NCBI RefSeq assembly: GCF_000002985.6
Contig: NC_003282.8
Coordinates: 9,920,001-9,984,000 of the forward strand
Source: Caenorhabditis elegans
Taxonomy: Eukaryota > Nematoda > Chromadorea > Rhabditida > Rhabditidae
Direction of reading: 5' to 3'
DNA length: 64,000 nucleotides
Each line of letters starts with the position of its first letter. Positions within the stretch are counted from its first letter, which is position 1. A program made the position numbers and the translations under genes. Positions 2,051-24,200 of the stretch are shown in pieces. The notes under the pieces were generated by a model. That model did no database searches, had not been told where the DNA came from, and worked only from the letters and a program-made list of their open reading frames with translations.

Positions 2051-5000
2051 TTATTCGGAAGCCTTCACTTTTGAACCAGCAGTTTTCAGTGCTTCACCTG
2101 AAATTATTTGGTTCCAATATTTTAAGAGTTGCAAAAGTATAAAATCATACCAGTTTCATCTCTTGCTGAGCTGAAAGTATCGCTAACAAATCCTCCAACT
2201 GCTTTGGCACCATCTACAACAGCACCACCTGCTGCTGCTGCTCCATCAACAACGGCTCCACCGGCAGCCTCTGAAAAACATTTTTCTTACATATGATTCA
2301 CTGAAAAAACACTCACTTGCTCCTCCAGCAACAGCTCCAGCTCCATAGGCAACGTTTTCTCCCACAAATTTTGCTCCGTCAGCGATTCCCGATCCAACTG
2401 CCTCTGAAAATACGTATTTTTAGTATCAAGACCTTGAACTTCTTTCAAATAAATATTTACTTGCTCCACCAACGACAGCTCCTCCAGCAGCAGCAACTCC
2501 ATCAACTACGGCTCCACCAGCAGCTTCTAAAAATATACCTGTTTTTTAAAGCGCTATTTCATAGAATATAATTACTGGCTCCACCAGCTACAGCTCCAGC
2601 GCCTTCCGCAATTTTTTGCCCTACGAATGCAATTCCACTTTCAGTTTTTTCGGCAGCGGCTTTCCCGCCTTCAACTACTGTATCTCCAGCAGCTTCTAAA
2701 ATTTTTTTATACATAAAAAGAGATGCTTGAAATCACATCAAACAACTCTATCGATTCAATGACACACTATCTGGTTAAATTAATTTACGATTTCATAGAT
2801 TTTATAAAACTTTTGATTTTTATCTTTCAAGGTTTCTTCGTGCAAGTTAACAAATATACAAATACAATAAAATGTTAAAAAGAAGCATGCAAACATATTA
2901 GAATTGAACAATCCACACACATCTCGAAAACTAACTTGCTCCATCTGCAACCTTTCCGGCTCCGTGAGCTACATTTTCACCAACAAATCTCATTCCTTCC
3001 ACGGTCTTGTTACCGGCTGTGGCTAAAAAACTTAATGTGCAAACTTAAAATTAAATGAAAATTTTACTGACTTGCTCCTTCGACAGCTGCATCTTTAGCG
3101 GCAACAGCTCCATCGGCAATTGATTGTCCAGCGGATTCTTTAACAAAAAAAATAACCAAATGAATTTAATTTAATTTAATTAAAAATTAATAACTCAAAA
3201 TTAATAACTCAAAAAACGCTCGTTGAAGAATGTTGTAAAAAACTTACTTGCTCCGTCAGCTACCTTTCCTGCTCCATGTGCAACATTTTCTCCGACCCAG
3301 CGAGCTCCAGACTCTGAAGAATATAGATTATTTTGATTACAGTATGTAGTGTTGATAGTACTCACTTGCTCCTTCAACAGTCTGTTCTCCAGCGGATTCT
3401 GAAAACGAATTAATGGTCTCCAGGAAAATCATTTTGAAAACTTACTAGCTCCCTCAACAACAACTCCTGCTCCATGAGCAACATTTTCACCAATCATTCT
3501 CATTCCATCAGAGGCTGTTTGACCGACGGTTTCTGAAAAATTAGATATGCTTTTTTTACTCCAATGAAATATCTTACTTGCTCCATCAACAATAGCTTCT
3601 CCAGCAGTGTTTGCCGAATCTACTGCATAATTTCCAGCAGCTTCTGAAAATCTTTTACGTGTATTTCAAAGGCAATTAATAACTCACTGGCTCCATCTGC
3701 AACCTTTCCTGCTCCATGAGCAACGTTCTCACCGACCATACGCATTCCTTCGTCTGAAATTGAAAATAAAAACTTTAATTTGAAAAAAGAAAACAAAATT
3801 TAATGAATTTTACTAATAATCAACGCTTTTTAAACCCGGAATCATTCGATCAAAGTTTATTGTTTTGATCATCCTTATCAGTTGGAAACTGGATTATCAC
3901 AAAAATGACTCACGATGTGGAAATAACAATACTATACATTATGATAAAAAATTGTTGTTTCAAAAACAATTTAAAAATCACTCACGAGCTCCATGGACAG
4001 CATCTTTTGCTCCTTCGGCAGCAGAATCTTTGACATATTCTGAGAAAAATGTTAATTTTTAGATTAGTAATATCAAGGTTAGTATTACAATATAGAGACA
4101 GAACCAAGTCTGGTTAGAACAGGGGTTTAGATTACTTTTAAATTTTAAATTTTAACATATTTTTAATTCTATCAATGAAATTTCAAGAAAATCGCTTAAT
4201 ATTTGAAACGTATCTGGTAGAGCTACTAATGTTCTTTGCAACTTACTAGCTCCATCAGCGACCTTTCCGGCTCCGTGAGCAACATTCTCTCCGACCCAAC
4301 GACCTCCATCTTTTACAGCGTCATAGCCAGCTTCTGAAATAGTTTATTATGAGCTTGAAACAAAGATTTTCAGTCTTGATAAAACTTAGAATTCAGGTTA
4401 GAAATGTGTTGGGACAATAATTTAACTAAAAACGTATTCCCGATTGTGATAAGAGCTTCTAAAACTAACCAGCTCCTTCAGAAAGTGCATCTCCAGTGGA
4501 TTTTCCAGCTTCATGCATCGATTGAGCCATATTACCTAGAAATTAAAATCAAAAGTAACTGAAAAGTGCAAAAGGTCTCAATTACTTGCTCCCTCGGCAG
4601 CGGCATCATACATCTTTTCAGCTCTGTTCTTAGTGCCTTCAGCAACATCTTCTGAAATTTAAAAAGCGGGTAACTCAACTGACTGAAAGTTATGTATAAC
4701 TCACCTGCTTTGTCAACGGCCGAATCAATTGCTTTTCCAGTTTTTTGTCCAACAGTATCTGAGAAAAATTGAGTTTGAAATAAGAATTAAACTGAATTAG
4801 AAACCTTGATCCGATTTGATCTATTTCACCCTTTAAAAGCTATTTCGATCTAGCTACAGTGTAATAACTAAATAAATAAAGTAAAAAAACAATAAACTTC
4901 ATTCAATGCATACAGAAAAATTTGTACTGATACCTACAAAATATGAGAAAATGTCATGCGAACTCCCTGATCTTCTTTTACTAGAAAAATAGTGAAATCA

Positions 5001-8000
5001 TAATCATGCAGTGATGAAAAACAATTAAAAAACAAAAAATGGAGGAAAAGTGGGTATAAATAGTGAGTAAGGGAAAAGAAGAGAGTGGAGAATATGAAAA
5101 AGAAAAAATAAAGAAAATTCAAACAACTAACTGGATCCTTCCTCTGCAGCTTCTGAAACGACGATTAACTTTTGAAAATTTAGAATGAAAATTTTGGATT
5201 AACATACATATAAGAGTAGAGAAACAGAGTTTTTGGATTAATTTTCTTAAAGTAGTAAACCACAATTACCTAACTGCTAGACTAATTTTCTTAATCAGTA
5301 TTGAAGAAAAATATTTACTATAATAATTGTAAGCAAATACGGTTGGCACAAAATTACCGATTTTCATTTATAAAATTTTCGTGCCTATAATGCAGAAGTC
5401 TTGAAATTTCGAAACGAGATACTAGAGAATTAGTTCTCACGAAATGAGAGAATCTACTGGAACTTCTCTAATATTAAAAATGTATAAAAAGCTACTACTC
5501 GACAATGTAGACTTATATATTAAGTTACAAGGAACGAATGTAACTTAAATTTTAAAAACTAACCAGCAACTTCATGTCCAGCTTCATCAATTCTTTCTCT
5601 CATATCAGCAACTCCATCTCTTCCTTGTTCATATCCATCATGTGCAGCATTGCTCAATGTGTTGCCAGCTTCTCCTATCAATAAATTATTATCAAGAAAT
5701 TATCACAATTTCCAAAACATACTAGCTCTGTCTCCAGTCCAATGAGCTCCTTGTTCCGCAGTTTCGGAAACTTTGTTGGATGCTTCACCTAGGGAAATTT
5801 TAATTGAAAAACATGAATCAATAAACAAAAAACAATAAACAATAAACAAAAATTGAACGAGAATTGAATAAAAACGACGCAGAAAATGGACATGATAACG
5901 ATAACGAGCACTTTTGTAACAGAAAACTAGCGCATTTACTCACTGAATTTCTTCTTTGCTGCCTCGAATTGCTCTTTTATCGCCGATGATACAGTTGCTT
6001 CAAATTAAAATTTGATTCCTTTTTGTTCAATATTTTATAATCTAATTTCTAATAGGGGCACTCAAAATGGATATTTGTTTGAACAATAAACATTCAATTC
6101 TAAACTATCAAACCTTACTCATTATGTATTCCTACCAAACAAATGAATATGTATGTATTTACCTAAATAATAATTACATTCTAATCAACTACACAATCTT
6201 GAAACACCACAGCTGAACCGTTTGACAAACGTCACACAATGAAACTGATAGACACTGCCGCCACGTGGCACACAAATCTCTCACCAATCACATCTCCTGA
6301 TTGTTTCTTTGTCTCATACAAATAGTGGTCAACTTTTCCAGCAGCGTCAACTGAAACGATATTCACTTTTCCGACGCATGGATCCTCTTGCTGTGGTTGT
6401 GGATTGCACGGAGCTGGTCCATTTCCATGGCATTCCACAACAGGGGCACGGAACTCATTGGTTCTTGGGTACTGGGGCTGAGGGGATCTTTGACGGCAAC
6501 CACCACCGTTTCTTTCGGGATATGGTTGTTGGTGTTGGGGTGGGGCCATTGTGTTTGGTGAGTAATATGGTCCTGGAAGGCATCCTCCCGTTTGACGTGG
6601 AGGTTCAGGTTGACGCTGGTAGCATGGAGGTTGGGGTTGTTGTTGTGGTTGAGGTTGTGGCTGACTGTAAGTACATCCACCGCGTTGGGGTTGGGGTTGT
6701 GGGTATTGCTGTTGCTGTGGTTGTGGTGGTTGTGGCTGATTCTCGTAGCCTCTTGGCGATGGAAGACAACCTCCGGTTCTTTGTGGATATGGTTGTGGCT
6801 GTGGCTGAGGTGGTTGAGGTCTTTGGCATGGTGGTGGTTGTGGTTGCTGATATTGTTGACATGGAGGCGGGGGACCCGGTGGGGGAAGGCAATTATTTCT
6901 TGGTGGTGGTGGTCCTGGAGTTGGTTGTGGACGACGATTACGACAACGTTCACGACGACGAGCGTCGGCTTCAGCTCGAGCACGCTCTTCGGCACTCTGC
7001 TGGCGTTTGAGTCTATCGTTTTGAGTTTCTAGTCTAGCTGCTACTCGAAGGGTATGTTTCTCTGCTGTAAACTAGCTGGCTATTTAGGTAAAGAGGTTAT
7101 ATATGTTAGCTGTAGGGTGTTGAAAAGTTCAATGAGATTATACCTCGTTCGGAAAACATTTTTCTACCGATTTTCCGATAATACTCGATTTTGAACTCAA
7201 TTTTACCCCCATTGAACTCTTCATATTAATATCACTATGAATGTCCAAATCCACGCGTATTACAATTAAAGTTCAAAATCTGTCAGTTTCAATAACCATC
7301 ATATCAAACCTAGTTGGGTCACAACAAATTCTCCAGTTGCTGTGTAGACATATGTTTTGACTGGTTGTAGAATGTGAACTGAATATTAGAATTAATTATG
7401 TTAGTAAAAACACACACAAATATTAGATTAGCCGAGTTTTTGTTGGAATACTTTTCCAGTTGGTAAACCCGTGAAACCGAATGATACAGTATGCAATATT
7501 GTAGTATAACAGTAAAAATTGACGTGGGTGAAATAGATATCATTCTATGAAACAGTAAATAAAAAAAAACTAACCGACTGCCTCGGCTCCAGAGTGAGCT
7601 GCTTCTTCAGCATTTCGCCTGACTCGGAGATCCTGAAAATTTTTATTTATCTTTTTAAAATATCATATACTATTGTCGATATTTTCTTATACATATATTC
7701 AAACAAGTTTGTTGCAGCCCAATGAAAGAAACAAAAGCTGTCTAAATTAGAATGTGAATAAAACTTTTTAATGTTTTGAAACAATTATCTAAAGTTTGAT
7801 TGGGTTTTAGATCTACATTTAAATTATGACTACTGTAGTAAGTGGGGTAGAGCAAGGTTTAAAACTACAATGTATAGTTGAACCATCTGTATAGATAGAA
7901 AAACAAAATAGCTCAAATGAGAAACAGAGGATTGCTAAAAATGAGAAATAAAGATAGGCATACATCTATATAGACAGGAAAATTAATAATAAGTTATGAG

Positions 8001-8222
8001 GTAGGTACGTAGGCATAATACATGCCTGCTTGCTATGAAGTAATTGAATTTGTAAGTTTTCGATAGTAAAATATGTTTTCAGGAAATATATTTTGAGAAG
8101 GTGTAATTTATTTAAACTTTAGTATCCGTATTATTGAAAATTCAATTTCTTACCTGTTCTGATACTGGTGCACTGAAGCAGAGTGCGGCGCACAACGAAA
8201 CGAGAATAAAAAGAGTTCGCAT
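2051..8222 (-). CDS. dur-1: LEA-like repeat protein with signal peptide, probably DUR-1
   Basis: Twenty-four exons give 798 residues. Exon 1 (8,154-8,222) starts with a signal peptide (MRTLFILVSLCAALCFSAP). Exon 2 (7,575-7,632) has a dibasic VRRN site. Exon 3 (6,285-7,064) encodes an Arg/Glu-rich coiled-coil-like segment, then a Pro/Gln-rich region with spaced GGC motifs. Twenty small exons follow: 5,944-5,997; 5,723-5,788; 5,564-5,674; 5,132-5,152; 4,705-4,758; 4,586-4,651; 4,470-4,535; 4,247-4,333; 3,986-4,039; 3,688-3,753; 3,578-3,643; 3,446-3,532; 3,366-3,398; 3,248-3,313; 3,072-3,137; 2,936-3,022; 2,576-2,695; 2,461-2,526; 2,317-2,403; 2,151-2,270. The last exon is 2,051-2,097. The small exons encode Ala/Gly/Lys-rich amphipathic repeats (GENVAHGAGKVADGA type), as in group 3 late-embryogenesis-abundant proteins, which protect against desiccation. 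The symbol is recalled from the gene's position near gon-1 and was not checked. Confidence 0.85.
6500..6900. repeat. Low-complexity Pro/Gln-coding repeat inside the LEA-like gene
   Basis: The plus strand reads as runs of GGTTGTGG and related units. On the minus strand these encode PQPQ, PPQPQ and QPQQQ tracts within exon 3 of the LEA-like gene, interrupted at intervals by GGC (for example TGGCLP, RGGCTY, TGGCLP, NGGGCR). The open frames seen here on other strands and frames are by-products of this composition. Confidence 0.8.
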
Positions 8223-8826
8223 TCTATAAAAATTTTAATAAGAATTTTAATAAGTTTTTAATACTTTTATATACAAAGAAATTGTTAAATAGAAGACAAG
8301 AAATCACAAAAAATTTAAAAGAAAATTCATTTCGATTTGGAAAACGAAGAATTTCTAGAATGATCACCTAAAGTTGAAATTAGGTGCGGTATATAAAGGA
8401 GAAGATCGAGCTTTGATGTTTCATTTTTTAAAGTAAGACATCAAATAGCGATTGTATTACAGACTCTGTAAGAACTGAGATTGTTGTTGTCATGCTCACA
8501 AACACCCATCACATTTTCCTCATCAAATCATTTGGAGTAAAGAAGAAGAAAAATGAAAAAGAAGGATGAAAAAGAAACAACTGGCAATCAGGTATTTCAT
8601 CTCTTTCATAGTGGTCTTTTTCTCTTTCTTCTTTGAGTGATACGAGTGTTGTATTGATGCTCCAATTGCCAGAAATTAGAAGATTGATGATCCAATCAAA
8701 CACTTTTGTTTTTGCTCCATTCATGATTTTGCGACAATCACAAATCGTTCAATCTTTTTTTTTCTCAATGAACACGTGATTCTAGAAGGGGTCTTTGAAT
8801 ATTTGGAACATTAAATAAACTTCTAG

Positions 8827-8833
8827 GTAAACA
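8827..8833 (+). promoter_or_regulatory. Candidate DAF-16/FOXO binding element
   Basis: GTAAACA matches the core DAF-16 binding element and lies about 605 bp upstream of the LEA-like gene's ATG. A 7-mer is expected by chance every few kb in AT-rich DNA. Its value rests only on the likely dauer and stress role of the neighbouring gene. Confidence 0.3.
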
Positions 8834-10318
8834 AGAATCAAATTTCATAAATTGTTTTTGATAAAACTGAAAAGATCACATTGTGGGGGCTTCCTTGATT
8901 TGTGAAGCTCAATGATCGTGATGTAAATCTGAATAGGTATTGACAAACAAAACACAGTTTGATCATTGATACGAATGCAATTTGATATCATTATTGTTTT
9001 TCTTTTTCTATGAAATCTCTTGATTATTTTCAGTTAGTTTTTCGAAAACATACGTCTTCATATCAGTCAAAGCTATTCTCTGCATTTATTTACATTTTGA
9101 TCTTTAAAAACTATAAATTGAATATTTAGAATTCTGATAAACTTGGTGATAGTTTTGTAGTCAAAGTGTCACTTTCTCCTTTGACTTTTGGAAACCGTCA
9201 CATTTTGAATGTTAAAAAGTATGACGTCAAGTTTGTTTTTCATTGGTATTTCCGAATGTACAAAAGTCAACTGAGAAGGTGAGACGCTGAAAACTAGTAA
9301 ATCTTATAGCTGAAATGAAAATTGTTTTGATGAAGCTTCAGAAGTAAATTTTAACTATCGAGTTTTACTGTAAGTCTAACAATTTAGATCAACTTTTTTA
9401 GAAGTTGCTAAAATTATAAATGAAAATGAAAAAGAGAACCGAAAAAAGTTGAGTGTGTGTAACAGAAATGAGCGGTCACTACACCTACTGCTCCTGGTAC
9501 CAAATGGCTCCGAGACGTGGAGCTGGGAGCCCCACACAGGCACTGCCATGAGCACCGGATACTCAAGGAATGGCGCCCAATTGAGATGAGAAGAAAAAGG
9601 ATAAAGATGCAAAGTGCAAGTTTTTAGGCAAAAGAGATGATATGGATTAAATGGAAAATTAGAAACGATTTCTGCAGTCGGTGAGTCTATTACACACTAC
9701 AACGAAGAAATCCGTGACATTCAAAAAAAATTGTGTAATTTTTTCTGCTGATTGATTAAGAAATATCAAGATGAAAGGAGCATGAGTCATTGCGGACAAG
9801 GGCAATTTTCAAAATTTTGTTAATTCAAATATACATTTATCTCAAAAAAAGTATATATAATCGAAATGTATATAGACAGTAACCTCATGAACAAATATTT
9901 TCTTTAATAAAACAAAATGTTGTTTTTTTGTAAGTTACGCCCTATGATGTCTGTAAATAATTAAAAAAACAACTTGTATCAATTCTTCATTAAAAATGCC
10001 CCAAAAGTTTTCTTCTAAAAGGAGTGACGTCATGCATTCTATAAAGTTAAATCGCCCGCATGTTCTGGAAATAAAAACTGGAAAAATGATCCTCTGTATG
10101 TATATGTACAGTGAAACTGTAAATTCAATTTTTATACACGTCACCCCGATATTGCATTGTGAATCTTGTCCTTTTTTTGTATTAGAATGAGAGACTTCTT
10201 AAACTCCATTTTGTAAAAATTTGCTTTCCGTCTATAACGGATATCTTGGCGAGACCAACTCAGCAAAATAGCGTGCGCCTTTAAATTATCAGCGTAAAAT
10301 ATTGGAAAAAATATATCG

Positions 10319-10657
10319 CAATTTCGCAAGAGTTTGTCATACGTTTTTAAAGACGCACGGATTTATTCTGATGGATCTCGGAGCGCAAAAAGTTTGTTGT
10401 AGTACTTTTTTAAAATTACAGCTGAATTCTAATTTAATTAAGAATGTGAGTATTTCTTGTTTGTTGGTCTGAAAAAAGAGAAAAGTTAATTTAAAAACAG
10501 ATAAACTTCGCTAAAAAGGAATTTTATTGAAAAATGTAAGCAAAATTACCATGAAAGCAGTTGCAAAAAAACTACCATAAATTTTTTTGCGCCCCGAGAC
10601 CCATCTGAACAAATCCGTGTGCCTTTAAAAAAGCATGCCAAAATCTTGTGAAATTAC
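10319..10657. repeat. Palindromic (MITE-like) inverted-repeat element
   Basis: Two arms of about 90 nt face each other. The left arm reads CAATTTCGCAAG, then TTTTTAAAGACGCACGGATT, then GATCTCGGAGCGCAAAAAG. The right arm, reverse complemented, reads GTAATTTCACAAG, then TTTTTTAAAGGCACACGGAT, then GGTCTCGGGGCGCAAAAAA. The centre is unrelated AT-rich DNA without an ORF, so this is a non-autonomous element. It resembles the palindromic TTTAAA-type repeats common in C. elegans. A related copy is at 59,712-59,908. Confidence 0.75.
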
Positions 10658-10989
10658 AATATAAAAAATAAAAAAAATCCTGAAAGTTGAACTCCTTCTC
10701 TCAAAACAAATATTTACTTGAAGCAATCTAAAAATATGAAAAAGTGAAAAACCGACGGAACGGAACATCAATCTGCCAAGCCTTTGAAAATGTATGGAAA
10801 ACGAGATTGAAATCCGGATTGGGCGGGAATCATGCCATTCAAAAAGAGCGAAATTGTTCTATAATTGCTGGTTGTGTAGTCAATATATTATCCGAATTGA
10901 TTTTGAAAAATTCATAAGCAATAAAAAATAACGAAAATGGTTAACAAATAATAACAACATTTGGGTGTAATTTTAAAATATGAAAATGA

Positions 10990-12135
10990 TTAATTTATTT
11001 TAGGAGAGCCCGTGGCAGTATCGGTGGATTCTGTGTCTAATTTTCCAATTTCTTCTAGGCTTTCTGGCTTTTCTTCCACAACTTCCTCTTTCAATTGAGC
11101 ATTCTTCCGTTCTGGAATAATTGAAAGAAGAGCATCTTTCCAGTTTTTGTGAACAGAGTAATGAACCAGAATTTCATAGACTTGATTGATAGTGAGTACC
11201 TGAAATCAGAAGAATATTATGGGACAAAAATATGGAAACCGATTACCCGTCGAGATTTCATGAGAAGATGTTCATCTAAAGGCAATTTTGCATGACCAAA
11301 TCCTTTTTCTTGAGCGATTCGATAGCACAATCCTTTTTGAGAATTATGATCCACAATTCCTCCAATTACATACACTTTCGTATCATCAAGATCGCTCAGG
11401 ACATTTTCAGATTCAGAAGTCAAATAAACTATTTCCTCTGGTTTAAATAAATTTTCCAATTTTTCTTGGTGAAGATGGATGTCTTGATTCAGGTTGTGCT
11501 CATTACCATCATAAATCTCAACAAAACCAATTAAAACACTTGTTGTGCGAAAACAAAATTACTTTTCTCGATGGTCCATCGAACCCCACAACATGAAATT
11601 GAAATGGATCAGGACTGTGTCTGTTCGCAGTATAACACCATCCGATTTGCTGAACTGTACGTTTTTGATCCTTTTCAATCATCAAATCGTCAAATGACAT
11701 GTCCAAAGCAATTCGTTGCTAAAAAGTTGTTTTAGTCTAAGGAAATTGTCAGATTTTACCAGTTGAAAACATTTTTACTGTATGAATGTTCAAAAGTTAA
11801 TGTTAAACAAATTACTGGAATCGTATATTACCTTGCTATTAGACTGAGCCATTGTTCTGAAATCTTTTCGTTTCCTCAACTTTGAAAGATCTCCCGATTC
11901 TTTCAGCGCTGCTCGTTTTTCCTTTTTTCGAATTCTTTCCGCTGCACGTTTGACTAACTTCTTTTCTTCCCATTTCACCTTGTATTTTTGACGTCGCAGT
12001 TGCTTTTTCGACATTCCCTCTGGTACTGCTGGAATATTATAATTCAATACATACTGATGCAACGGAAAACTCACGTTGGTCTTGATTTTGATGCTCCACA
12101 TTATCTTCAAATTTTTCGATTGTTTCCTCCGACAT
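10990..12135 (-). CDS. tRNA (guanine-N1-)-methyltransferase, Trm10 family
   Basis: Trm10/TRMT10A enzymes methylate N1 of the purine at tRNA position 9 using S-adenosylmethionine. Five exons (12,075-12,135; 11,832-12,028; 11,563-11,718; 11,247-11,516; 10,990-11,199) give 297 residues, normal for the family. Visible features are an acidic N-terminus, a long basic region (KKQLRRQKYKVKWEEKK) typical of Trm10, the SPOUT-core segment ALDMSFDDLMIEKD, then YVIGGIVDH, KGLCYRIAQ and AKLPLDEHL, which match the conserved Trm10 GGIVDxN-type and LP[IL]xE motifs. The family usually has Asn where YVIGGIVDH ends in His. It is head to head with NAF1. An AATAAA on the minus strand (10,994-10,999) lies within the last codons, so the 3'UTR may be very short. 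Confidence 0.92.
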
Positions 12136-12352
12136 AATTTTCCACTTAAAGATGCCAAAATGATATTTAGAATATATTTTTTAATGTTTTCAAAAAAAAA
12201 AATGAGAGAAATCAGTGAAATGCAAACATGCTCCAATGACAAACTAACAAACGACACTCCGATTTCGCGTCAAAAATTTTTTCAATTAAAAAATTTATTT
12301 CGTTTTTAGGTTAATTCTTTTATTTACACTCATTGCAAAAATATTATCAAGA
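12136..12352. promoter_or_regulatory. Bidirectional promoter region, Trm10 / NAF1
   Basis: Only 217 bp separate the divergent start codons of the Trm10-family gene and NAF1. Any core promoters must lie here or overlap the 5' ends. An open frame crossing it on the plus strand has no features of a real gene. Confidence 0.6.
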
Positions 12353-13764
12353 ATGGAGGAAGAAACAATTAAAGTCGAAAATCTGGATGATTCAATTGTA
12401 TGTTTTCCTTTTAAATTCCAAAAATATTCCATATTTTAGACTATCGATCGAAATCCTGTGCCACTTGCTTTCTGTGCTCGACCAACACTTCCCGCAAAAA
12501 TTGGAATGAAGACAGAAGATGGAATCGTCGATCAACTTTTGGATCTTGTTGATCCTATCACCGTTGTGAATCCTACTGAAATTCGCCAGGCTCCATCATT
12601 GAAAAGCTTCGGATGCGACACTGAAAGTGAATTTGAGTTTTCTGGAGATGATAGCGATTTCGAAAATATCAACGATTTACGAGCCGGTGCACTTGATTCT
12701 GATGAAGAGTTTGACAGGCTAGTAAAGTTTTCCGCAAAGATTATTGAGAAGACACACAAGTCAGAGTACCCGGATGAAAATGGAAAAAAGCAGCGGAAGC
12801 CAAAAAAGTCACAAAAAACGGTAAGGTTTCATTATTTTGAAATGTTTTTTCGAATGATTAGATTTCTAGCGTAATGTTCACGAGTATGATGATATGCCAC
12901 CACTCGAGAATCTCAGTATTGAATGTAAAGGACAATTGCTGGAATTTGGTTTTGTAAGCAAAGTCGTGGATTGTCAAGGTAAATTGTCAAAAATGTCAAC
13001 CTTATATAAAATGTTAATTGAATTGGTATTTCAGTTGTTATCATTTCAACATGCACAGAAGTTCTCGACTTCGATTCATTTCTTTTCGATCAAAAAGGAA
13101 ATGCGTTGGGACAAATTTATGACATTTTTGGACAAGTCAAAAATCCACAATACGTTATTCGATTCAATTCTTGTGAAGAGGTGAAGCTTTTAGTAGACAA
13201 ATAAAATATATAACAGAAGTTTTATAGGCATCGATGATACCCATTGACATGAAAGTATATTATGCTCCTACAGAAGAACAATTTTCCAAAACTCCATTCA
13301 AAGGACTTAATCTTGCTGCAGCAAATAGGGATGCTATTAAATCCCTAAATCGTCGCATTGATCATCAAGAAGCTGTTGCAAAAGCTGGTGAAACGATGGC
13401 TCAGGTTGGCATCGGTAGTGACGTGGAGTTCAGTGATGATGAAGCGGAGAAAGAATTTAAACGCACCACATGTAAGATATAATTGAAATTTACTTTCAAA
13501 TTCTAGTAATTTTCAGATACCCAACCAGCTAGTCAAATGTCAAGAGGATTCGATTCGAACAGAGGGCGAAAACGAGATCGCCGCGGAGGACAAAAAGTTA
13601 GATTTTCTGCTCAGAATCCACCTGCCAGATCGGATAATCTTGGGCCCATCCCTCAGCAGCCATCTGCGCCACCGCCACCTGCTCGTCCAGCACAATCAAC
13701 CGAATCAAATCCATATGCCGAATTCGGATGTCATTCTGGATTCAACGGACGTTTTGGAATTTAA
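12353..13764 (+). CDS. H/ACA RNP assembly factor NAF1
   Basis: NAF1 binds dyskerin/Cbf5 during assembly of H/ACA snoRNPs and is later replaced by GAR1. Six exons (12,353-12,397; 12,440-12,820; 12,870-12,978; 13,035-13,180; 13,228-13,471; 13,517-13,764) give 390 residues. Order: acidic N-terminal region with DxE-rich stretches (SEFEFSGDDSDFE, DSDEEFDRL), a Lys-rich linker, then the Gar1/Naf1 RNA-binding core beginning HEYDDMPPLE and containing GFVSKVVD, STCTEVLDFDS, GQIYDIFGQVKNPQYVIRF and KVYYAPT. The tail is RG-rich (RGRKRDRRGGQK) then Pro/Gln-rich, as in other NAF1 proteins. It acts in the nucleus and shares its promoter region with the Trm10 gene. The core motifs leave little doubt; GAR1 is excluded by the long acidic N-terminus. 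Confidence 0.92.
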
Positions 13765-13859
13765 TTTTTTGTTAAAATATCGTTACACATTGAATACTTT
13801 GTTGGATATATTGTAACATTTTTTCGTTGTTATTGTTGCACTTTTGGAATTGACGCGTG

Positions 13860-13865
13860 AATAAA
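13860..13865 (+). terminator. Poly(A) signal of NAF1
   Basis: AATAAA lies 95 nt after the NAF1 stop. The next possible trans-splice acceptors are at 13,959 and 14,016, a spacing typical of C. elegans operons (about 100 nt). Confidence 0.6.
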
Positions 13866-14025
13866 CTTCATTTTTACATTTTAAAATCATAAATTGCTAT
13901 AATATCAAAATGACGAATAGTCATACTCACAACGGAAACCGAATTTGGTTCATCTGCAGCTGGGAAAATGGTCCAATTTGTTATGGAATGGCTCTGTGAG
14001 TTCAAATTCTTCGCAGCTGTGAGCT

Positions 14026-14210
14026 ATGCTCTGGAAATCGTATTTTTTCAGTGATCTTATTGGGGGAATTTCTTTGATTGCTTTCTCAGTTCTTCTCGTC
14101 GGAGTCATATTTTTCGGATGGTTTGGAATATTTCCAAAAGTTATTCGAGTAAGCTTCACGAGTAATTCTAATTTTTGTATGTTTTCTTTCAGCGTAAACT
14201 TCACGATTGA
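14026..14210 (+). CDS. Small single-pass membrane protein, possible operon partner of NAF1
   Basis: I do not recognise a family. Two exons (14,026-14,148 and 14,193-14,210, 44-nt intron with GTAAGC..TTTCAG) encode 46 residues. The protein is a short N-terminus (MLWKSYFF), one long membrane helix (LIAFSVLLVGVIFFGWFGIF) and a basic tail (PKVIRRKLHD). A TTCTTCGCAG acceptor ends 9 nt before the ATG, and AATAAA follows at 14,267-14,272. Without the splice the frame runs on to 14,268, giving an 80-residue product. The position about 150 nt after the NAF1 poly(A) signal suggests SL2 trans-splicing in an operon. Alternatives are an upstream start or a non-coding 3' region. Confidence 0.45.
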
Positions 14211-14266
14211 ATTTTATATTTTTATTATAACGTTCAGAAGAAGGCGAGGCTCTATTACTCTATTTT

Positions 14267-14272
14267 AATAAA
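14267..14272 (+). terminator. Poly(A) signal after the small membrane-protein ORF
   Basis: AATAAA lies 57 nt after the spliced stop. It supports a transcript ending here, separate from that of NAF1. Confidence 0.5.
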
Positions 14273-15066
14273 ATATTTGAATTGACTAAAGTTTAATAAA
14301 TATTATGCAGTGCTATGAAAAACTTGTGGGTAAAGTGGAATAGAGAAAAAAAGAGAAAAGAAAGGAACGGCAGGAAGAAGCTGGCTGAAAATTAGAATAT
14401 CTAAAAAAAACAATTAATAAAAAAAGATTAACTGGAAGAAGGAAAGCAGCGGGTGGGTTGGAAAAGTGAAAAAAGGAAAGGCAGTATAATAGGAAAACAA
14501 GGATTTTTGAAACATAGAAAACAAGGAAAGCAAAAAAAGAAAACAACTGGAAATAAGGAAAGATTTAAAGCTCAGGCTATAATGAGTATGTAATTGAACT
14601 GAACAAATTAAAAAATAAAAACAAAAAAGATTCTCCTGCGATAAGACTAAATTACTTAGCGAAGTTAGGACAGGAGCAAACATCGATCAGGAAAATCAAA
14701 CTTCAGCGATTCGCAAAATTGATGGATATACATATCGAGAAATTTTAAACAGTTTCCGCTTCTTTTTTGTTCAGAAACTTTGTTCAAGAATGTCTAAATT
14801 GCCCCCATATATCTCACAATTCAGCGAATTTCAATATTTGATTAGAAAAAAAGGCGCAGTCAAAAGTACCGTAACCTTTGATCATGAAACATTTTCAAGG
14901 AACATACTATGTAGAAAACCTAGTGTTAGGTGATTGAGGGAATGACAATAAATTCGAAGTAATGCTATTAAAAACTAAAAAAAAGAAAAGAATCAAAAAC
15001 TTGAAATAAGAGACCAGAGAAGTAGAGATTCATACGAGATTTTGACACTTTTAGGTATCGAAAAAA
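14273..15066. other. Non-coding 3' flank of gon-1
   Basis: Purine-rich, A-rich sequence between the small plus-strand ORF and the gon-1 stop codon. It should contain the gon-1 3'UTR. I found no clear minus-strand AATAAA and no coding exon. Confidence 0.5.
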
Positions 15067-18000
15067 TTAATCCATGTCACCAGAGAAACCATCATCATCC
15101 AATTCATCATCAATGTGTCCACCATTTTTCACATGATTTAATAATTTTGTATTAACTTCAAAGATTAGTCCTTTGTACCGCTCAGGAGAGCATTTTCCAC
15201 AAAAACCACCACAGTGACCAATAACTTTTGCATTGTTCTTAAAATAGAATAGATTTTGAACAAATTAAGGTTTTCAAAAACTCACATAAAAACGATCGAT
15301 TCGAGAGGATGTTCGATGACCTTGATCCTCCCAATTCAGATCGTCAACTAATTTCAGACCAGCAGATTTTAAATCAATTGAGAATATTCCCTGTGGACAA
15401 TCTTTCATACTGTAGCAATCACCGGCAGTACCATATGGCACATGAACACCATATTCTCGTTTTGCAAATGTATAATCCGCCACTGAAAGTTTCAATTTCT
15501 GTATACGGGTATTAAATTGTTGATAAATAATTCAGATTAATCAGATCATATAAATTCAAGTACAGTATAAATTACTTACGATGGAACTTTCTATTCAACA
15601 AATCTATTCGAACTTTATTGAATCTCGTCAATCCAGCACTTGCATCGCCGTCTTCTGAACAATGGCATGAATCATTACGATCACCATTAAATGGGCAAGT
15701 ATGAGGGTATATTAATCTGGAATCGCAATTACAGAAATTTGTAAATCTACTGAAATAAACTAACTTTTTTCCATAAACCTCTGCAAAATTGGTTCTTGGA
15801 TTAACGTTCAAATAAGCTTTAGGAATGGTTGAATTCATTCGATGACAATAAATTTCAATAGTGAATCCGTCAAGAAGAATAGTGTAATTTCCATCTTTAG
15901 CCTTAACATTCTGAGATTTAAGCTCCTGACAAGTTGACGGAAGGCCTGAAAAGTTTACAATATTCTATGTTCGAGTCAATTTAAAACTTACAATTTCTTT
16001 CAAAACAATATTGAGTTCGACGTGGTTTCTTTGTGGTACACTTGACTCGTTCAACTCGACGACCATCATTGGCCACACACTTGACACGTCGACGTCGAAT
16101 ACCTTGACCGCAATTTTTCGAGCATTCACCCCATGGTCCGAAACTCCATTTGAATTCCGAATCGCATGGGTTAAGTTCGCACGTTTGAGATTCATTTGGT
16201 TTTGGGAAAAGTTCACATTTCTCTTTTGGTACAGCTGGTTCATCTTCGAGCATAAATATAATTGGAATGGTTGAGTTAAAATTAATCTTTCTACGACATC
16301 TGACTTCTCGTGTCTGTACTCCTTCTCCACATGACTTTGAACACTAAACATATCAATTTATATATTCACTTAGTTCTAGAAAACAACACCGTTTGCCAAT
16401 CTCCTGGCACCCACTCATATGGACAATTTGATGTATCGCACTCTCTGATCGAAGTTGGTGCACGAGCCAATTCACACATTCGTGGAGCTGCTCGTTTACC
16501 AGAAGTGCTTATACAGTGCACCCGACGAGTTTGCTTTTGTCCTCGAGCACACTCATCTTTGCACTGAAAGAATATATGTTGTGAGATTTAAACAATTTAT
16601 TTTAATGTGTGGGAAAAAGTGTGGACTGGATAGCATTTCTAAAGGATCACCAATACGATAATATTTCATTTTCTTACCAAATCCATTTGAAAACGAATGA
16701 TGGACTCTGAACATGTTTTTAAAAGCATACATATTTTGAGAGATTTGGGGGTTTTCTTCAGTCAGCAAAAACCGTTGAAAATGGTTGGTAATTGTGTAAT
16801 AGCTGAGCCCTAATAGGTTTCAATAGGATAATCATAGTAATGGCCTACAAGTAAATAATTATTCAAATTGGTCATATCAGGCTTCCAATTAGCAGCCAGT
16901 CATGATTATTTCTAGACAAAAATATATAAATTAAATCCGCTTTCATATTTAAAATTTAAAAGCCTTTTAAAATTTAAAAGCCAGCTACTACACAAATACC
17001 AACAAAATCAAAAACAACTAAAATCACAACTCTCACCTTGCTCCATGGAGTAACATTCCATCTATAAGCTGGACAAGCCACTGGGAAACAGTTGGCAACA
17101 GAGTTGAGCTTAGTTTTTGGATTGCACTCCGAATCAGACACCAAATTCTTGCGACCACGATAACATTGAACTTCACGACGTCTGATTCCTCTGCCACAGG
17201 TGACAGAACACTGTAAATTGATTATTGAAAAATTGAAGTAGCTTGAGAAAAATGTTATCTTTATCTTACCGAACTCCAAGTAGTAGTCTTCCATCTCGGG
17301 CAATGTTTAGTACGACAACGAACTTCTTCAACTGGTTTCTTCGTTTGATCACATTCTGTACTTGCCACTGTCACATTTAATGATGGATTTACACATTCGA
17401 CAACTCTTCGTTTCGTTCCACGACCGCATTTTGCAGAACACTAAATACTTGAATGTGTGAAATATGGAAAATTAAATCGGAAAATTTACAATTTGGAACT
17501 ACGCATTTGAAAATTTCGCGTTTTACAGGCTAATCTCCGTTTTTGAATCTACTCGAAATATGAAACACATTAAATCAGAGAATCATCGCCCAATTTTAAC
17601 CAATCTACGGAAGTGGATGGAGCTGATTGGTAATGCAGTTCTCTTTTTGGAGATAGTTAAAAAGTGGAGTTCAGTCAGAGTTAGACAAGATTCAAAAGTT
17701 GGATTTTTTTAATTTTATCCTAACTATGTTGTTTCTGTATTGTAGACATTTTCGAGTGTTCTAAAGCAAAGTACTACTCCAGAAAATTACAATAAAAAGT
17801 TAATTATTAGCAGTTTGTAAGAGACACTAAATCTATACGAGACTACCACACCAACAATGCTTCTATACTAGACATATAAATTCTAACAGTTCCACTACAC
17901 ATTGTTCATGCATTTCTAATTCTAAGTAACACTTAAACTGATTCTAGACACATTTAGCAACAAAATAACCGTGATTCTGAAATTAATTTGCCTTACCTAT

Positions 18001-18143
18001 ATCACAACTTTTGTGAACAGACAGCACAATGAGCAACATGCAACACGTAGAAAAAACAATAACAACGGCCAAATAGACAATAGACACATTTATTAATTGA
18101 TTTTCAGATGCTTGTGTGGATGAAAGGCAAAGATCATAAGAAC

Positions 18144-18215
<72 letters not shown>

Positions 18216-21200
18216 CAACTGAAATCTGGCATTCTTTTGAGAAAGAAAACATAGGGTTTTTGGTTTTTGACTTCTTTGAAGTAGCAGTGAAATTTGAAAT
18301 TAAATTGTTGCAATTTGAAAAATATAATACCCGTTTTCTATGAAAAAAACGAAGAACGACAATTGAAAAAAGCGAAGAAAACATGCAAAAAAAGACATGG
18401 TACATGGCACATAAACGACGACACATAAAAATGGACAATAGGATCTTAGACCTTATTCACTTGATACGTGTAATAGTTATTACGATAGTATGTTTTTGGC
18501 CGATTCCTCCGCGTCTTCTTTCGACGACGTGGAGGTGGAGGCAAAAGCGAAGTAGTTGTGGAAGAATAAGAATTATGATTATCATGATTATTATTCAAAT
18601 TAACTCTATTGTTACGTACCGCGCTCCATGCAGACGTTTGCCAGGAGACGACGGGTGGAAGGATAGGAAGCGAAGAAGCGGAAGCGGAAGACGTCGTATT
18701 TGAATTCGAAGATGATAATGATGTCATTGATGCTGATGATGTTTTGTTGTGATAATGAGATCGGCATGGAGGCATTTCACAATCTCTTTGTTCGCGAGGC
18801 TTAATCTCTGAGCACTCGATATCGTCTTGTTTACGACCGGAAAGCACGTCTTCACACCAGATTTTGCGGCGTTGAACTCCCCCGCCACACGATACAGAAC
18901 ACTGGAATTATTATTAGAAGCTTCAATGATGTTCTAAGAACTTACGTGAGTCCATGGAGATATCTGCCAAGAATTATTTGTGAGTGGTGGACATAGTTCT
19001 TCATTGCATTTATCAAACATCTTTGGTTTTCTGGTTTCATCGCAAGAAGACGAAGTGCAAGATACACTGCGACGACGCCATCCCCCACCACAAGAAGCAG
19101 AGCACTGAACAATCGTACATTAGTAAATTCTAAATCTGAAAATTATATATCCCACTTTTGACCAATCTCCAATAATCCAGGATCCAATATGTTCTTCTCC
19201 CTTTGGACAGGGTTCAAGTCGGCAATTTCTTGCACTTGTTGGTCTCTTTTGCACATCACAATCAACATCTTTCAAAATCGTCCGACCACCGTCTTCCGCA
19301 CTGACGCATGTAACATTTCTACTTTGTTGAACATGAGTTCCACAAGTAGCTGGACACTCTTCCCATTCCGCCATTTTCCAGTATGAACAATCACGAAGGC
19401 GACAATTTCTTGTTGATACTTCCTTATCCAAATGATTGCAATACTCATCAGGAAGATCACGAACATGATCTCGGCACTTGAGAAGACGACGTTGAGTACC
19501 ATTACCACAAGTTGCTGAACAGGCTGTCCATGGTCCGGTTGCCCATCGGATTGGTGGTACGTCGGCTTGAAGTTTTTGAAGTACTCTGGGCCCATCACAA
19601 GTATCTTTTTCACAAGTCTTTTTTAGGCGTGGACGAGTATTCTGAAATGATATTTTCGTTCAAGATTAAAAGCAAACTGAAACGTACTCGATCACAAAAA
19701 TATTCATCAACAATAGTTCCTTCAGATCCACGAGTACACGAAACACTTCTAGTCTGAATTCCTGATCCACAAGTGACTGAGCAAGGGGACCAATGACTTG
19801 GTTTCCAAGATGTACATGGCAGAAGATGGCAAGTTTGACTAGTTTCTGGCATTTTGGTATCTCCACAAAAAGAAGCATCAACAGATTGTTCGCGGTATAT
19901 GCATTCGGTTGTACGTTCCCGATGACCGATTCCACAAGATACAGAACACTGAAACGTATTTATGGTATTGACAACAGCAATTCTGGAGTATTTGAATAAA
20001 CTTACAGCACTCCAATCAGTATTTCTCCAAAATGGGCAAGTGCCTAAATTACATGTCTGATGAGAAGCAGGCCGATCAGATGCAGTACCACAAAGTGACA
20101 TATCGACTTCAGTTCCATTTCCAGAAACACATGAAACTCTTCTTGACGACCATCCATCCTCACAAGAAACACTACACTGAGACCATTCTCCAAGTTTATA
20201 TTTTGGACATGATTCTCTATGACATGGTTTTGTAATTATCTTTTCCATTTTAAGGCAACGATGTTCCGGTAGTACTGATCTATGACGATCGGTACAATTA
20301 GCGTCTCGATACTGTACACCATCTCCACACTTAGCTGAGCAGTCAGACCAGACTCCGAACTGCCACCAAGTACAAGCATGTTCATTACAATGTTCTTGTG
20401 TCTGTGCTGGACCACATCTGGATGTATGTGTTTCCCGATCGGCTGCATCCAAACATTGAGCATGACGCATTTTGACTCCACCATCACAACTTCGAGAGCA
20501 CTCTGACCAATGCCCATAAACCCATCTTGGACATGGAATTCTGTTACATTCCCGTTCTGTCGCCTCTTTCTGTTCTCTGCCGCACAATGACTCATCAACT
20601 CGACGATTCGAATCATCAACGCAATATGACTTCCGATGCATTTTTCCATTCGATCCGCAAGTTTCAGAACATGAAGTCCATTCTCCATAGTTCCATTTTC
20701 TTCCAGAGCAGTCAATGTAACAACTGGCAATATCGGATGGTTTTGAATTACGATCACATAGATGTTCGGATGCTGGAGTTTGACGATCACCCTCCATTTT
20801 TACGCAAGAAACTCGTTGACGTTTCTGTCCAGATCCACATTTGGCACTACAACTAGACACATCTTCAGTGATCCATCTGTAAATATAAAAATTTATTATA
20901 GAAATCTAATGAAAATATGTAGTTTACCTTGTAGAACAATCTATATTGCACATTCGTGTTGCTTGTTTTGGTTTGAGAACATTTTGACAATTTCTATCAT
21001 GACTTTGACGATGAGTCGACATGTCCAGACACATTAATTTTTGCGATTGCTGTCCACGACAGGCTCTATCACATTCTGTCCAAGTATCCGTAACTCTCCA
21101 CAAATACAATGCACTGGATATTGGCCGAATTACAGCATTTGGAACAGCCGCAGTCATGTACTCATATGAGATGTCGGGTGGATGACTACCAACAGAAAGA

Positions 21201-24200
21201 ACATGAACATAAATGTCACTTCTAATCGGACCAGTTCCATTTATCCGTTCAATAATTGCATCAGAACCAGAATATTCGAGAACAGTGTCTTGGAATGCAA
21301 TTTGTTGGCGAGCCAGTGATACTTGGAAATGACCGTTAAGTAGGAATTCACCATTGGCGGCACGGAGAGCTGAAGGTTAAAATAAAGATTTTCATGGGTA
21401 TTGATAACACAAGGGTGAGTGATGAAAAAAGTAAATGTTCCAAAAACACTTTGTATAGAAACTCACAAAGATAATTGTCATCTTCTTTCATATTATTATA
21501 TCCTTTCTGCCGGATATCAATATTTGCAGAACCAGCTGGAATCTTCATTACTTCGTTATAACCAAAGGTTCCTTGCTCATTAAATGTTCCTTTGACAACC
21601 TTACAGGAAGAATCATCCCCACCGCAAACACCACATTTGTCTCTTCGGAGAGTTGAATGAAGTTGATGATCACAGCCTGAAAATCCACTTATTTTCAATT
21701 TTCTTTTGAAATCAGATCAATGTTACCTGCTGGCATACAAGCTCCAGCTACACAAATATCGTCTCCATTTCTATCACATGGTGTTCCATCAACAACTTTA
21801 TCTCGAAGCAGATAGAACGCTGCAGATCCACTGAGCCGACAATACAGCTTGCAACGTTCATTTGGTGCAACATTCGCATATTTTGGAACCCAGTGAGTAT
21901 TCGTTGAAGCGACACCTTGGATTCCAATATCTTTATTGTTGAATTCAGAACATTGAACTTCACGGTATGGTTGAGTATCCCATGGGCATTCTTGTGTATT
22001 ACATGACCGATAACGTTCTCGTTGACCAACACAGTACTTTCCACCATTTCGAGGTCTAAAGTAATATGGGAAAATGTCATTTTAATATTGATAGGAAAGC
22101 TTAGCCAGTGTGGCCTAAAAGCTGGAAGTTTTTTTAAAGATGCGTTTTCTATCAATTTAAGATAACCGGCTACTTCAGGTGATTCTATAAATTTTATAAA
22201 GCTTGGAAGCTAGGTAAATCTGAAAAGCCTTAAACTATCTCGAAGCGGCCCGAAAGCCCAGAAAAGCAGAGACGGACAAACATTTAAGAGTGATCAGAAG
22301 CACTCCATACCTTGATGTTACATTTGATTTTAGTGTTTCCACCTCGTTTTCACTTCTGAACTCGCCGATTGAAAATATTTTGATTGAATATATTATTTGC
22401 TTTCAGACTATTTGATATCATTTCGTTTGGCAGTTTAACTCACTTTGGGCTGTCACAATCTCTTAATCCTTTTTGAACACCACCACCACAAGTACGACTG
22501 CATTCTCCCCATGATCGCCAGTCACCCCATTGTCCGTCAATTTTGGTAAGGGATTCGGGGGCTAGACGAACACAGGCTCCATGATGACAGAACTAAATAT
22601 CCAAGTTTTTATGAGTTTCTTTTGTGATTAATTTCTGAGATACTCACCATGCTTCTTGATTCGTCACAAGGAGTTCCGTCGGCCCATGGCATATGCTGAG
22701 TTCGACAGCCCATCTGGCTTCCGTAGAATGTTGCACACCAAAGACGGCGGCATGTCGGCTGTAAAATATCAATGTTTCATCTTAAAGAATATATTTAGGC
22801 AAACTAACCATATAAGGGCACAACTCAGAAGCTGGTCCAAATACAAACTTGCACTGTTGATGAGCATCGTATTTCTTTCCTGGTTCATCACGTACAAAGA
22901 CATCCTCGTAGTAACGACGTTCGACCGGCTGATCGAATAGACATTGAGTTTGACCTCGATTATTTCTGACAAATTGACAATTAAATAGAATCAAAATTTT
23001 AATAGCTATCTTACTCGAGGAATCGTTCGAGCATTCCAGCTGAACATGGCGACCAACTCCATGGATGAGTGTTATATTCCAACGTTGGTGCCATTATGTG
23101 GAAGTTGTTCTGAAACTGCGTTTTATCAAATTTAGTGCTTTGGAACTTGCAAACCTTATTAACCGGCATGTAGGTAGAGCATTTTCGTTCGTCATCATGA
23201 GGAATCGAAAACACATGACCCAATTCATGAGCAATTGTGAATGCAGCACTCAATCCATTGTCTTCTATGATTGCACAACTTTTTTGCATATCACACATTG
23301 TTCCAAGTTCAGCAAGTCCAAGTGTATCGCATTTTCCTTGTGATCGACAAATATCTTTACGCGTCAAAAGGATTGCAACGTCATGATGTTGGACACTCGA
23401 ATCATCTGGATCATTGTAATACTGCTGCCATCTACAGAAATCTTGAAGTGTTTGTTGAGCGTTCTGAGTGATTCGTGGTCCAGCGTTTTCCGTTTTCAAA
23501 ACGATCAACTTGACAACAACGACATTGATAGATGCACGAAGGGATTGGTGACGATAGATGGAGGCAACTGTGGAGAAGAGAGTGAGAACGTAGTCTTCAA
23601 GAGATCTTCCGTGATATTCGTACATTTTTGTATCCGCCACCACAAGGACTTCAACATAGTGATCCCAAGAGTTGGCAGCTCTTCGGGATCTTGCTTTGCG
23701 TTCTATAATTAAATCCTTTTGTTTCATAAAATTATTTAAACATTTTTTTACTGTATCCTTCCTATTAATCTTGCACCCCAGAGCTCCACTTTGACCTATC
23801 TTTGTTGTCATTGACTCTATCAAAAACTGTTCAACTATGAAAATGGGGATGCAAGACTAATAAAAGGTATTGGTAACTGGTTCCAGTAGAGCTTTTTTTA
23901 CTATCTGTTTCATTGATTCAATTTTCAGATGTTTATATAACCATCTTAACCGTTCAAATCTCATAACATAGAACAGCCTGGCAGCCCGTGAAAAGGTGCT
24001 GAAATCCCAGTAATTTCAATGGCATTCGACCACACACAAGTGATCCATTATCCTTTGCTCTTTTACTTCGTTAACTACCATTAGCTATAGGGGACCCACG
24101 AGCAAAATTCTATAGTTTCTGTGTGTGTTAGGGTGTTTTAATGGGCTATTACACAACACCCGATGGGATCAGCAGAATCTGAGATCTTTTGGGAACCGGA

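Follow-up and report, generated by a model that had tools for sequence, protein, structure and literature searches.

Why should the exons of a single gene come in only a handful of lengths? The question is raised by a gene on the minus strand of the window analysed here, a stretch of 64,000 nucleotides (nt) of the Caenorhabditis elegans genome (contig NC_003282.8, positions 9,920,001 to 9,984,000) to which positions refer unless another contig is named. This gene, very probably dur-1, carries a run of 20 short repeat exons, and the original prediction, made from the sequence alone, held that their lengths are quantised in units of 11 and 7 codons. Our preferred reading, to which we assign a probability of about 0.6, is that dur-1 is built of duplicated exons encoding helix modules of 11 and 7 residues, whose lengths have been held by selection for an unbroken apolar face.

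Exon lengths, phases and boundaries

The 20 repeat exons were excised from positions 5997..2151 of the minus strand and translated. All of them lie between an AG and a GT, and all are symmetric, with phase 1 at both ends (phase 1-1). Read 5' to 3', their lengths are 54, 66, 111, 21, 54, 66, 66, 87, 54, 66, 66, 87, 33, 66, 66, 87, 120, 66, 87 and 120 nt. A length of 66 nt thus occurs eight times, 87 nt four times, 54 nt three times and 120 nt twice, and the lengths 33, 21 and 111 nt are found once each. A rule of 33n or 33n+21 nt is followed by 19 of the 20. The positions and length counts that had been predicted, with the exon of 111 nt as the sole exception, were matched exactly, and the predicted symmetric phase was borne out for every exon (20/20). 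Once joined, the repeat exons form a frame of 481 codons without a stop, which continues into a last exon (2051-2097) containing a stop codon. The exons are listed here with their lengths in nt and amino acids (aa); GENV and spacer are two classes, assigned by eye, that are taken up under the origin of the exons.

5944..5997, minus strand: repeat exon 1, 54 nt (18 aa); weak acceptor TTTGAAG
5723..5788, minus strand: repeat exon 2, 66 nt (22 aa); read by eye, under the score cut of the candidate list
5564..5674, minus strand: repeat exon 3, 111 nt (37 aa); sole length exception; read by eye, under the score cut
5132..5152, minus strand: repeat exon 4, 21 nt (7 aa)
4705..4758, minus strand: repeat exon 5, 54 nt (18 aa)
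4586..4651, minus strand: repeat exon 6, 66 nt (22 aa)
4470..4535, minus strand: repeat exon 7, 66 nt (22 aa)
4247..4333, minus strand: repeat exon 8, 87 nt (29 aa); GENV class, RWVGENVAHGAGKVADGA
3986..4039, minus strand: repeat exon 9, 54 nt (18 aa); spacer class
3688..3753, minus strand: repeat exon 10, 66 nt (22 aa); GENV class, short by 7 residues relative to the 29-aa exons of that class
3578..3643, minus strand: repeat exon 11, 66 nt (22 aa); spacer class
3446..3532, minus strand: repeat exon 12, 87 nt (29 aa); GENV class
3366..3398, minus strand: repeat exon 13, 33 nt; one 11-residue unit, KSAGEQTVEGA
3248..3313, minus strand: repeat exon 14, 66 nt (22 aa); GENV class
3072..3137, minus strand: repeat exon 15, 66 nt (22 aa); spacer class
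2936..3022, minus strand: repeat exon 16, 87 nt (29 aa); GENV class
2576..2695, minus strand: repeat exon 17, 120 nt (40 aa); an 11-aa unit, then a 29-aa GENV-like unit
2461..2526, minus strand: repeat exon 18, 66 nt (22 aa); spacer class
2317..2403, minus strand: repeat exon 19, 87 nt (29 aa); GENV class
2151..2270, minus strand: repeat exon 20, 120 nt (40 aa); a 22-aa spacer-like unit and an 18-aa tail
2051..2097, minus strand: last exon, containing the stop codon, GEALKTAGSKVKASE*; its end position was counted on the sequence

One might ask whether the rule was created by the choice of boundaries, some exon ends being wrong. The acceptor of exon 1 is weak, and a second AG lies three bases inside the 5' end of seven of the 20 exons (exons 3, 4, 6, 8, 11, 17 and 18). 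Exons 2 and 3 fall below the cut (score of at least 10) of a mechanical list of candidate phase-1 exons, and some read-through candidates score as high as or higher than the exons chosen; 3643-3446, for example, scores 13 against 12 for 3643-3578. Nevertheless, the same list includes the other 18 repeat exons, every junction is AG/GT, the joined frame is free of stops, and the coherence of the helix across junctions, described below, provides an independent check that was not used when the ends were chosen. We consider such an artefact very improbable. Splicing at the inner AG of the seven exons would remove one residue from each and break the register of the helix. A scan of the minus strand from 6000 to 20000 for extra LEA-like repeat exons, based on splice score and composition, produced 12 candidates, none of them convincing, although the scan was not exhaustive and missed an exon at 7575-7632.

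Helix periodicity and the two neutralities of the exons

The repeat unit has a consensus of about K-A-A-G-x-x-V-V-D/E-G-A, 11 residues in length, and by eye the 29-residue exons divide into 11 + 7 + 11 residues, the 7 being R-F/W/M-V-G-E-N-V. Hydrophobicity along the joined 481 residues gave one sharp peak at 98.75 degrees per residue (3.65 residues per turn) with a power of 70.8, against a top power of 11.8 among 300 residue shuffles. The helix phase at the exon starts had a resultant of 0.943, compared with a maximum of 0.668 among 5000 random partitions. When random neutral spacers of 0-10 residues were placed between the exons and the angle was left free, none of 2000 trials attained 70.8 (maximum 45.1). 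Shuffling the order of the exons 2000 times left a mean power of 61.8 (lowest 29.9), and random subsets of 10 exons (n = 500) had a mean coherence of 0.95 with a minimum of 0.87. At 98.75 degrees, steps of 4, 7 and 11 residues turn the helix by 35, -29 and 6 degrees, respectively, the least rotation among all steps of up to 11 residues. Structure prediction for exon 17 from the single sequence gave a lone helix (residues 3-36 of the 39 folded) with a mean predicted local distance difference test score (pLDDT) of 86.5. The grand average of hydropathy is -0.90 over exons 1-7 and +0.03 over exons 8-20.

None of the 190 joins of one repeat exon to a later one creates a stop codon, the junction residue being K in 108 and E in 36 of them. 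The base at the 3' end of the 20 exons is A in 15, G in four and C in one, and since no repeat exon ends in T, the junction codon can never be a stop. In principle, whole exons could be lost or gained with no effect on the reading frame and little on the register of the helix. The suggestion that any of them could be skipped or duplicated without a frameshift and with the register unbroken holds for the frame, given phase 1-1 and the absence of stops, while the register is mostly, not wholly, kept. Exons are usually judged on reading frame only; nearly all of those described here also keep the helix turning in step, and this second kind of neutrality is easily computed and could be searched for genome-wide.

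Comparison of the length rule with chance

If the exons were independent and symmetric, the probability that at least 19 of 20 follow the rule would be 1.4e-13, but this value overstates the rarity and should not be used, because the repeat exons are duplicates. Counting each distinct length once, six of seven follow the rule (P = 2.1e-4, or 2.1e-3 when the post hoc second class is allowed for). The seven distinct lengths depart from whole turns by a mean of 21 degrees, against 88 degrees for all lengths of 7-40 codons at 98.75 degrees per residue. The probability of this result was 2e-5 (2 of 100,000 draws) at that angle and 9e-4 at the textbook 100 degrees; the tests on distinct lengths assume independence among the lengths, yet the 40-codon length looks like 11 + 29. 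Seven lengths between 7 and 40 codons are no more than 29 degrees off whole turns, a cut-off fixed by the 7-codon exon itself, and six of the seven occur in the gene, only 33 being absent. The quantisation of exon lengths is non-random even on the seven distinct lengths alone.

Probable identity of the gene and a lea-1-like paralogue

A protein search of the genome yielded 13 rows at E <= 10, of which nine fell at this locus and four at a lea-1-like locus on another contig (C5), the latter being weak matches (best E 0.29, not significant). The C5 locus bears KASDAWDKTKDKAGD-type repeats, and we take it to be lea-1. An assignment of the window gene itself to lea-1, from its LEA likeness, was dropped once the lea-1-like locus had been found on this different contig. 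By elimination the gene is very probably dur-1, for which we presume the cosmid name F25H8.5. Published work reports dur-1 as one of two LEA-type genes of C. elegans and labels its protein "group 3 LEA" (PMC8670023, PMC7649794). Mutants of dur-1 are described as extremely sensitive to drying and DUR-1 as present in dauers and not in L3 larvae (PMC3853187), with a rise in starvation as well (PMC4587315). Within the excerpts covered of the open-licence PMC literature no description of the dur-1 exon-length rule was found; the word "exon" has no uses in PMC3853187 and seven in PMC8670023, and those shown concern lea-1.

The joined protein has 11-residue repeats with helix periodicity, a trait of group 3 LEA proteins. 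Its best Pfam matches were to the Apolipoprotein family (E 1.3e-4, 22.1 bits against a cut-off of 90) and to ApoLp-III (E 0.026, 15.1 bits against 36.3), with no perilipin or synuclein family among the four Pfam matches listed. All 24 sequence matches to PDB at E <= 1 were to alpha-synuclein (best E 0.02), mostly from the end of exon 16 to exon 19. These matches would appear to reflect a likeness of kind rather than established kinship.

The lea-1-like locus, the sole paralogue found, serves as a contrast. Six of its exons could be bounded, the start of the 261-codon one being uncertain. The six measure 261, 189, 113, 124, 447 and 22 codons and are in phase 0, and two of them (447 and 22) conform to 11n or 11n+7 codons. 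The fraction of power in the helix period is 0.148-0.186 in the four longer lea-1-like exons and 0.147 in the dur-1 candidate. Thus the lea-1-like protein is equally periodic without the length rule, and helix periodicity alone does not bring about exon quantisation. Quantisation is not general to LEA-type genes. Both genes are of LEA type, with a helix periodicity near 11/3 as computed here, and lea-1 has many predicted isoforms (PMC8670023); lea-1 differs in having exons of up to 1341 nt, in phase 0, with four of the six measured off 11n or 11n+7 codons. At about 10021534-10023048 of contig C5 (L011, L012), three exons of 189, 113 and 124 codons have near-identical NKAxDAYN starts and similar ends, which suggests that exon duplication has taken place there too, without an 11n rule.

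Origin of the repeat exons

From exon 8 onward the two classes largely alternate: exons 8, 10, 12, 14, 16 and 19 are GENV exons, as is the end of exon 17, and exons 9, 11, 13, 15, 18 and 20 are spacers. This alternation suggests duplication of a two-exon block. Within classes, lengths differ by 7 (29 or 22), 11 (22 or 11) or 4 (22 or 18) codons. Over their last 18 codons, exons 8, 10, 14 and 16 are identical at 17-18 of 18 residues, while 36 of 69 fourfold sites, summed, are identical, about 35% being expected from base composition. Near-identical residues together with diverged fourfold sites indicate that the duplication was not recent and that the protein was held while silent sites drifted. 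The prediction that the gene was built by exon duplication in structural units is therefore supported, by the close similarity and the mostly alternating order of the exons and by their modules of 11 and 7 residues.

We propose that the gene grew by tandem exon duplication, at least partly as two-exon blocks of GENV plus spacer. Its protein would be one long amphipathic helix of 11-residue units, with 7-residue units between some of them. Length changes would have been retained mainly at near-whole turns (about 4, 7 or 11 residues), others being disfavoured because the apolar face would turn away, and the outcome would be exons neutral to frame and almost neutral to helix register. Selection on the register is probably at work; the points directly shown are the exon structure, the coherence of the helix, the phase neutrality and the contrast with the paralogue.

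The lengths might instead be a by-product of descent, in which the copies of a few ancestral exons (11, 22 and 29 codons) simply kept the lengths of their parents without any selection on register. The exons are indeed strongly related and fall into two mostly alternating classes, only four lengths (22, 29, 18 and 11 codons) account for 16 of the 20, and unequal crossing-over among 11-residue units would be expected to yield 11-codon steps. However, homologous exons also differ by 7 codons (29 and 22) and by 4 codons (22 and 18), which is unlike 11-codon slippage; the distinct lengths exceed chance at either of the two angles used above (2e-5 and 9e-4); and the lea-1-like gene, although built of repeats, breaks the rule in four of its six measured exons. 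We regard descent alone as rather unlikely, if by no means far-fetched.

A different history would have introns inserted singly into an older repeat array, at a lysine codon split as A|AA, with no duplication of exon and intron together. A lysine codon split after its first base does begin 10 of the 20 exons, and the introns have no clear similarity to one another. Such a history requires about 19 independent insertions in the same phase, and no intron stands at the two lysines that begin internal units within exons 17 and 20, although intron loss would explain these as well. The alternating two-exon pattern is also a better fit to block duplication, and late insertion seems to us improbable.

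A number of points weigh against the reading of duplicated helix modules held to length by selection. The spacer test was significant only with the angle free: when it was fixed at 98.18 or 100 degrees, a fraction of 0.177 or 0.43, respectively, of the random-spacer trials attained the observed value. When the same lengths were reordered on the same protein, the mean phase resultant was 0.854 and 69 of 2000 reorderings equalled or exceeded the real value; thus much of the phase effect is carried by the lengths alone. Exon 3 (37 codons) is off register by about 54 degrees at 98.75 degrees per residue, the phase of exon 4 (7 residues) is an outlier, and a 4-residue change of length turns the helix by 35 degrees. 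Two of the five structure models had a mean pLDDT below 60. The exons are relatives, so their agreement in phase is partly plain inheritance, and independent changes of length are few, perhaps three to five by eye. Clear likeness was absent among the introns (171 pairs compared, best z 3.8), and duplication is therefore argued from the exons only. As regards identity, PMC6652013 gives C. elegans a single LEA gene and handles dur-1 separately, and PMC8773926 places dur-1 almost exclusively in body wall muscle, which is neutral on secretion. A Pfam LEA_4 match was absent at E <= 5 for the joined 496 aa, while a control, a lea-1-like exon, matched at E 4.2e-10 (39.8 bits, itself below the curated cut-off of 51.1). 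A search of the genome with the LEA_4 profile gave no match and was equally silent for the controls, and hence is uninformative. The group 3 LEA label agrees with the helix-periodic 11-residue repeats, finds no echo in Pfam LEA_4, and comes from the published papers.

Comparison with known systems

Quantised or register-aware exons are already known in other forms, in collagen, in the micro-exon genes (MEGs) of schistosomes and in dystrophin. The Gly-X-Y unit of collagen corresponds to 9 nt, and collagen exons generally begin on whole codons, in contrast to the phase 1 of all exons here. Collagen triple-helix genes, with exons of 54, 45 and 36 nt, share repeat-quantised symmetric exons and exon duplication with the present gene (PMC4838654), and the trait of exon lengths set by the protein repeat is found here in the 19 of 20 exons of 33n or 33n+21 nt. 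Their unit is Gly-X-Y, a repeat absent from this protein, whose units are 11 and 7 residues of alpha-helix. MEGs consist of short symmetric exons in series; most of their products are secreted, some contain amphipathic helices, and splicing gives rise to variant proteins (PMC5825161). Their exons are of 6-36 bp, while only 2 of the 20 here are 36 nt or shorter, though all 20 are symmetric, and the excerpts of PMC5825161 contain no helix-turn rule for MEGs. In the human dystrophin rod, exon deletions keep or break helix register besides frame (PMC3748829), but the rod consists of heptad three-helix bundles with mid-helix boundaries, and register is kept mainly by the loss of paired exons, not by nearly every exon. 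Perilipin 4 (Plin4), alpha-synuclein and the exchangeable apolipoproteins resemble the predicted protein in their 11-residue repeats, slightly stretched helix and weak hydrophobicity (PMC5889406). Plin4 differs in having 29 33-mer units without insertions or deletions, whereas 7-residue units interrupt the 11s here (PMC5889406).

Upstream exons, possible secretion and possible splice-tuned length

Three further exons lie upstream of the repeats on the same strand.

8154..8222, minus strand: candidate first coding exon, MRTLFILVSLCAALCFSAPVSEQ; signal-peptide-like by eye
7575..7632, minus strand: candidate upstream exon, DLRVRRNAEEAAHSGAEAV; phase 0 to 1, in frame with exon 1, to which its linkage is inferred; found by eye
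6232..7064, minus strand: Pro/Gln-rich open exon with stop; 270-odd residues, entered in phase 1, no start codon near its beginning

The exon at 7575-7632 carries AHSGAE and, together with 8154-8222, could head dur-1 and give a secreted protein. It also joins the Pro/Gln-rich exon in frame; the latter, which had no Pfam match at E <= 1, may serve these 5' exons as an alternative last exon or else belong to a separate gene. DUR-1 isoform b is listed in reviews as the chondroitin core protein CPG-13 (PMC11632948, PMC8418075), with the entry Q7JLY2 and a chondroitin site at 368 in the table of PMC8418075. The candidate signal-peptide exon and the reported chondroitin site suggest that at least one form enters the secretory pathway or is extracellular. 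With the candidate 5' exons in place, the ESG serine of exon 17 is residue 412, and the skipping of 44 residues would bring it to 368. Sums of contiguous exon blocks take 22 different values up to 100, so many that the fit to site 368 is weak and only a hint.

A weakly apolar helix of this kind might be disordered in water and fold onto membranes or drying proteins in dauers. Surface binding of this sort is inferred, as are the gene name and secretion.

Exon skipping could set the length of the helix while leaving it on the same face, and hence set the strength with which it coats a surface. This idea, which would add to the duplicated-module reading, is tentative. All exons are phase 1-1, the 190 joins contain no stop, and random subsets of exons largely retain the register; the papers name isoforms A, B and C of DUR-1, and the binding of human Plin4 to lipid droplets rises with helix length (PMC5889406). 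On the other side, the 44-residue skip by which site 368 would fall on the exon 17 serine carries little weight given the permissive sums. It is possible that splicing makes many lengths of this protein, as the original prediction suggested, and the anatomy of the gene is well prepared for it. More doubtful is the full picture of dur-1 as a splice-tunable secreted helix, its length and binding changed by about two or three turns with one continuous face; a class of genes with register-neutral exons might extend beyond it. In dur-1 the second neutrality would offer a simple test of whether length variants of a protein that protects against drying are made on purpose.

Neighbouring sequence

An ADAMTS-like gene, presumably gon-1, lies upstream on the minus strand at about 16000-23900, with a metalloprotease open reading frame and many thrombospondin-type repeats. 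An assignment of the neighbour to K08H10.2 was dropped when this ADAMTS-like gene was seen. In the same region, at about 18100-18250, there is a long two-base tandem repeat, which translates as RERERE or SLSLSL.

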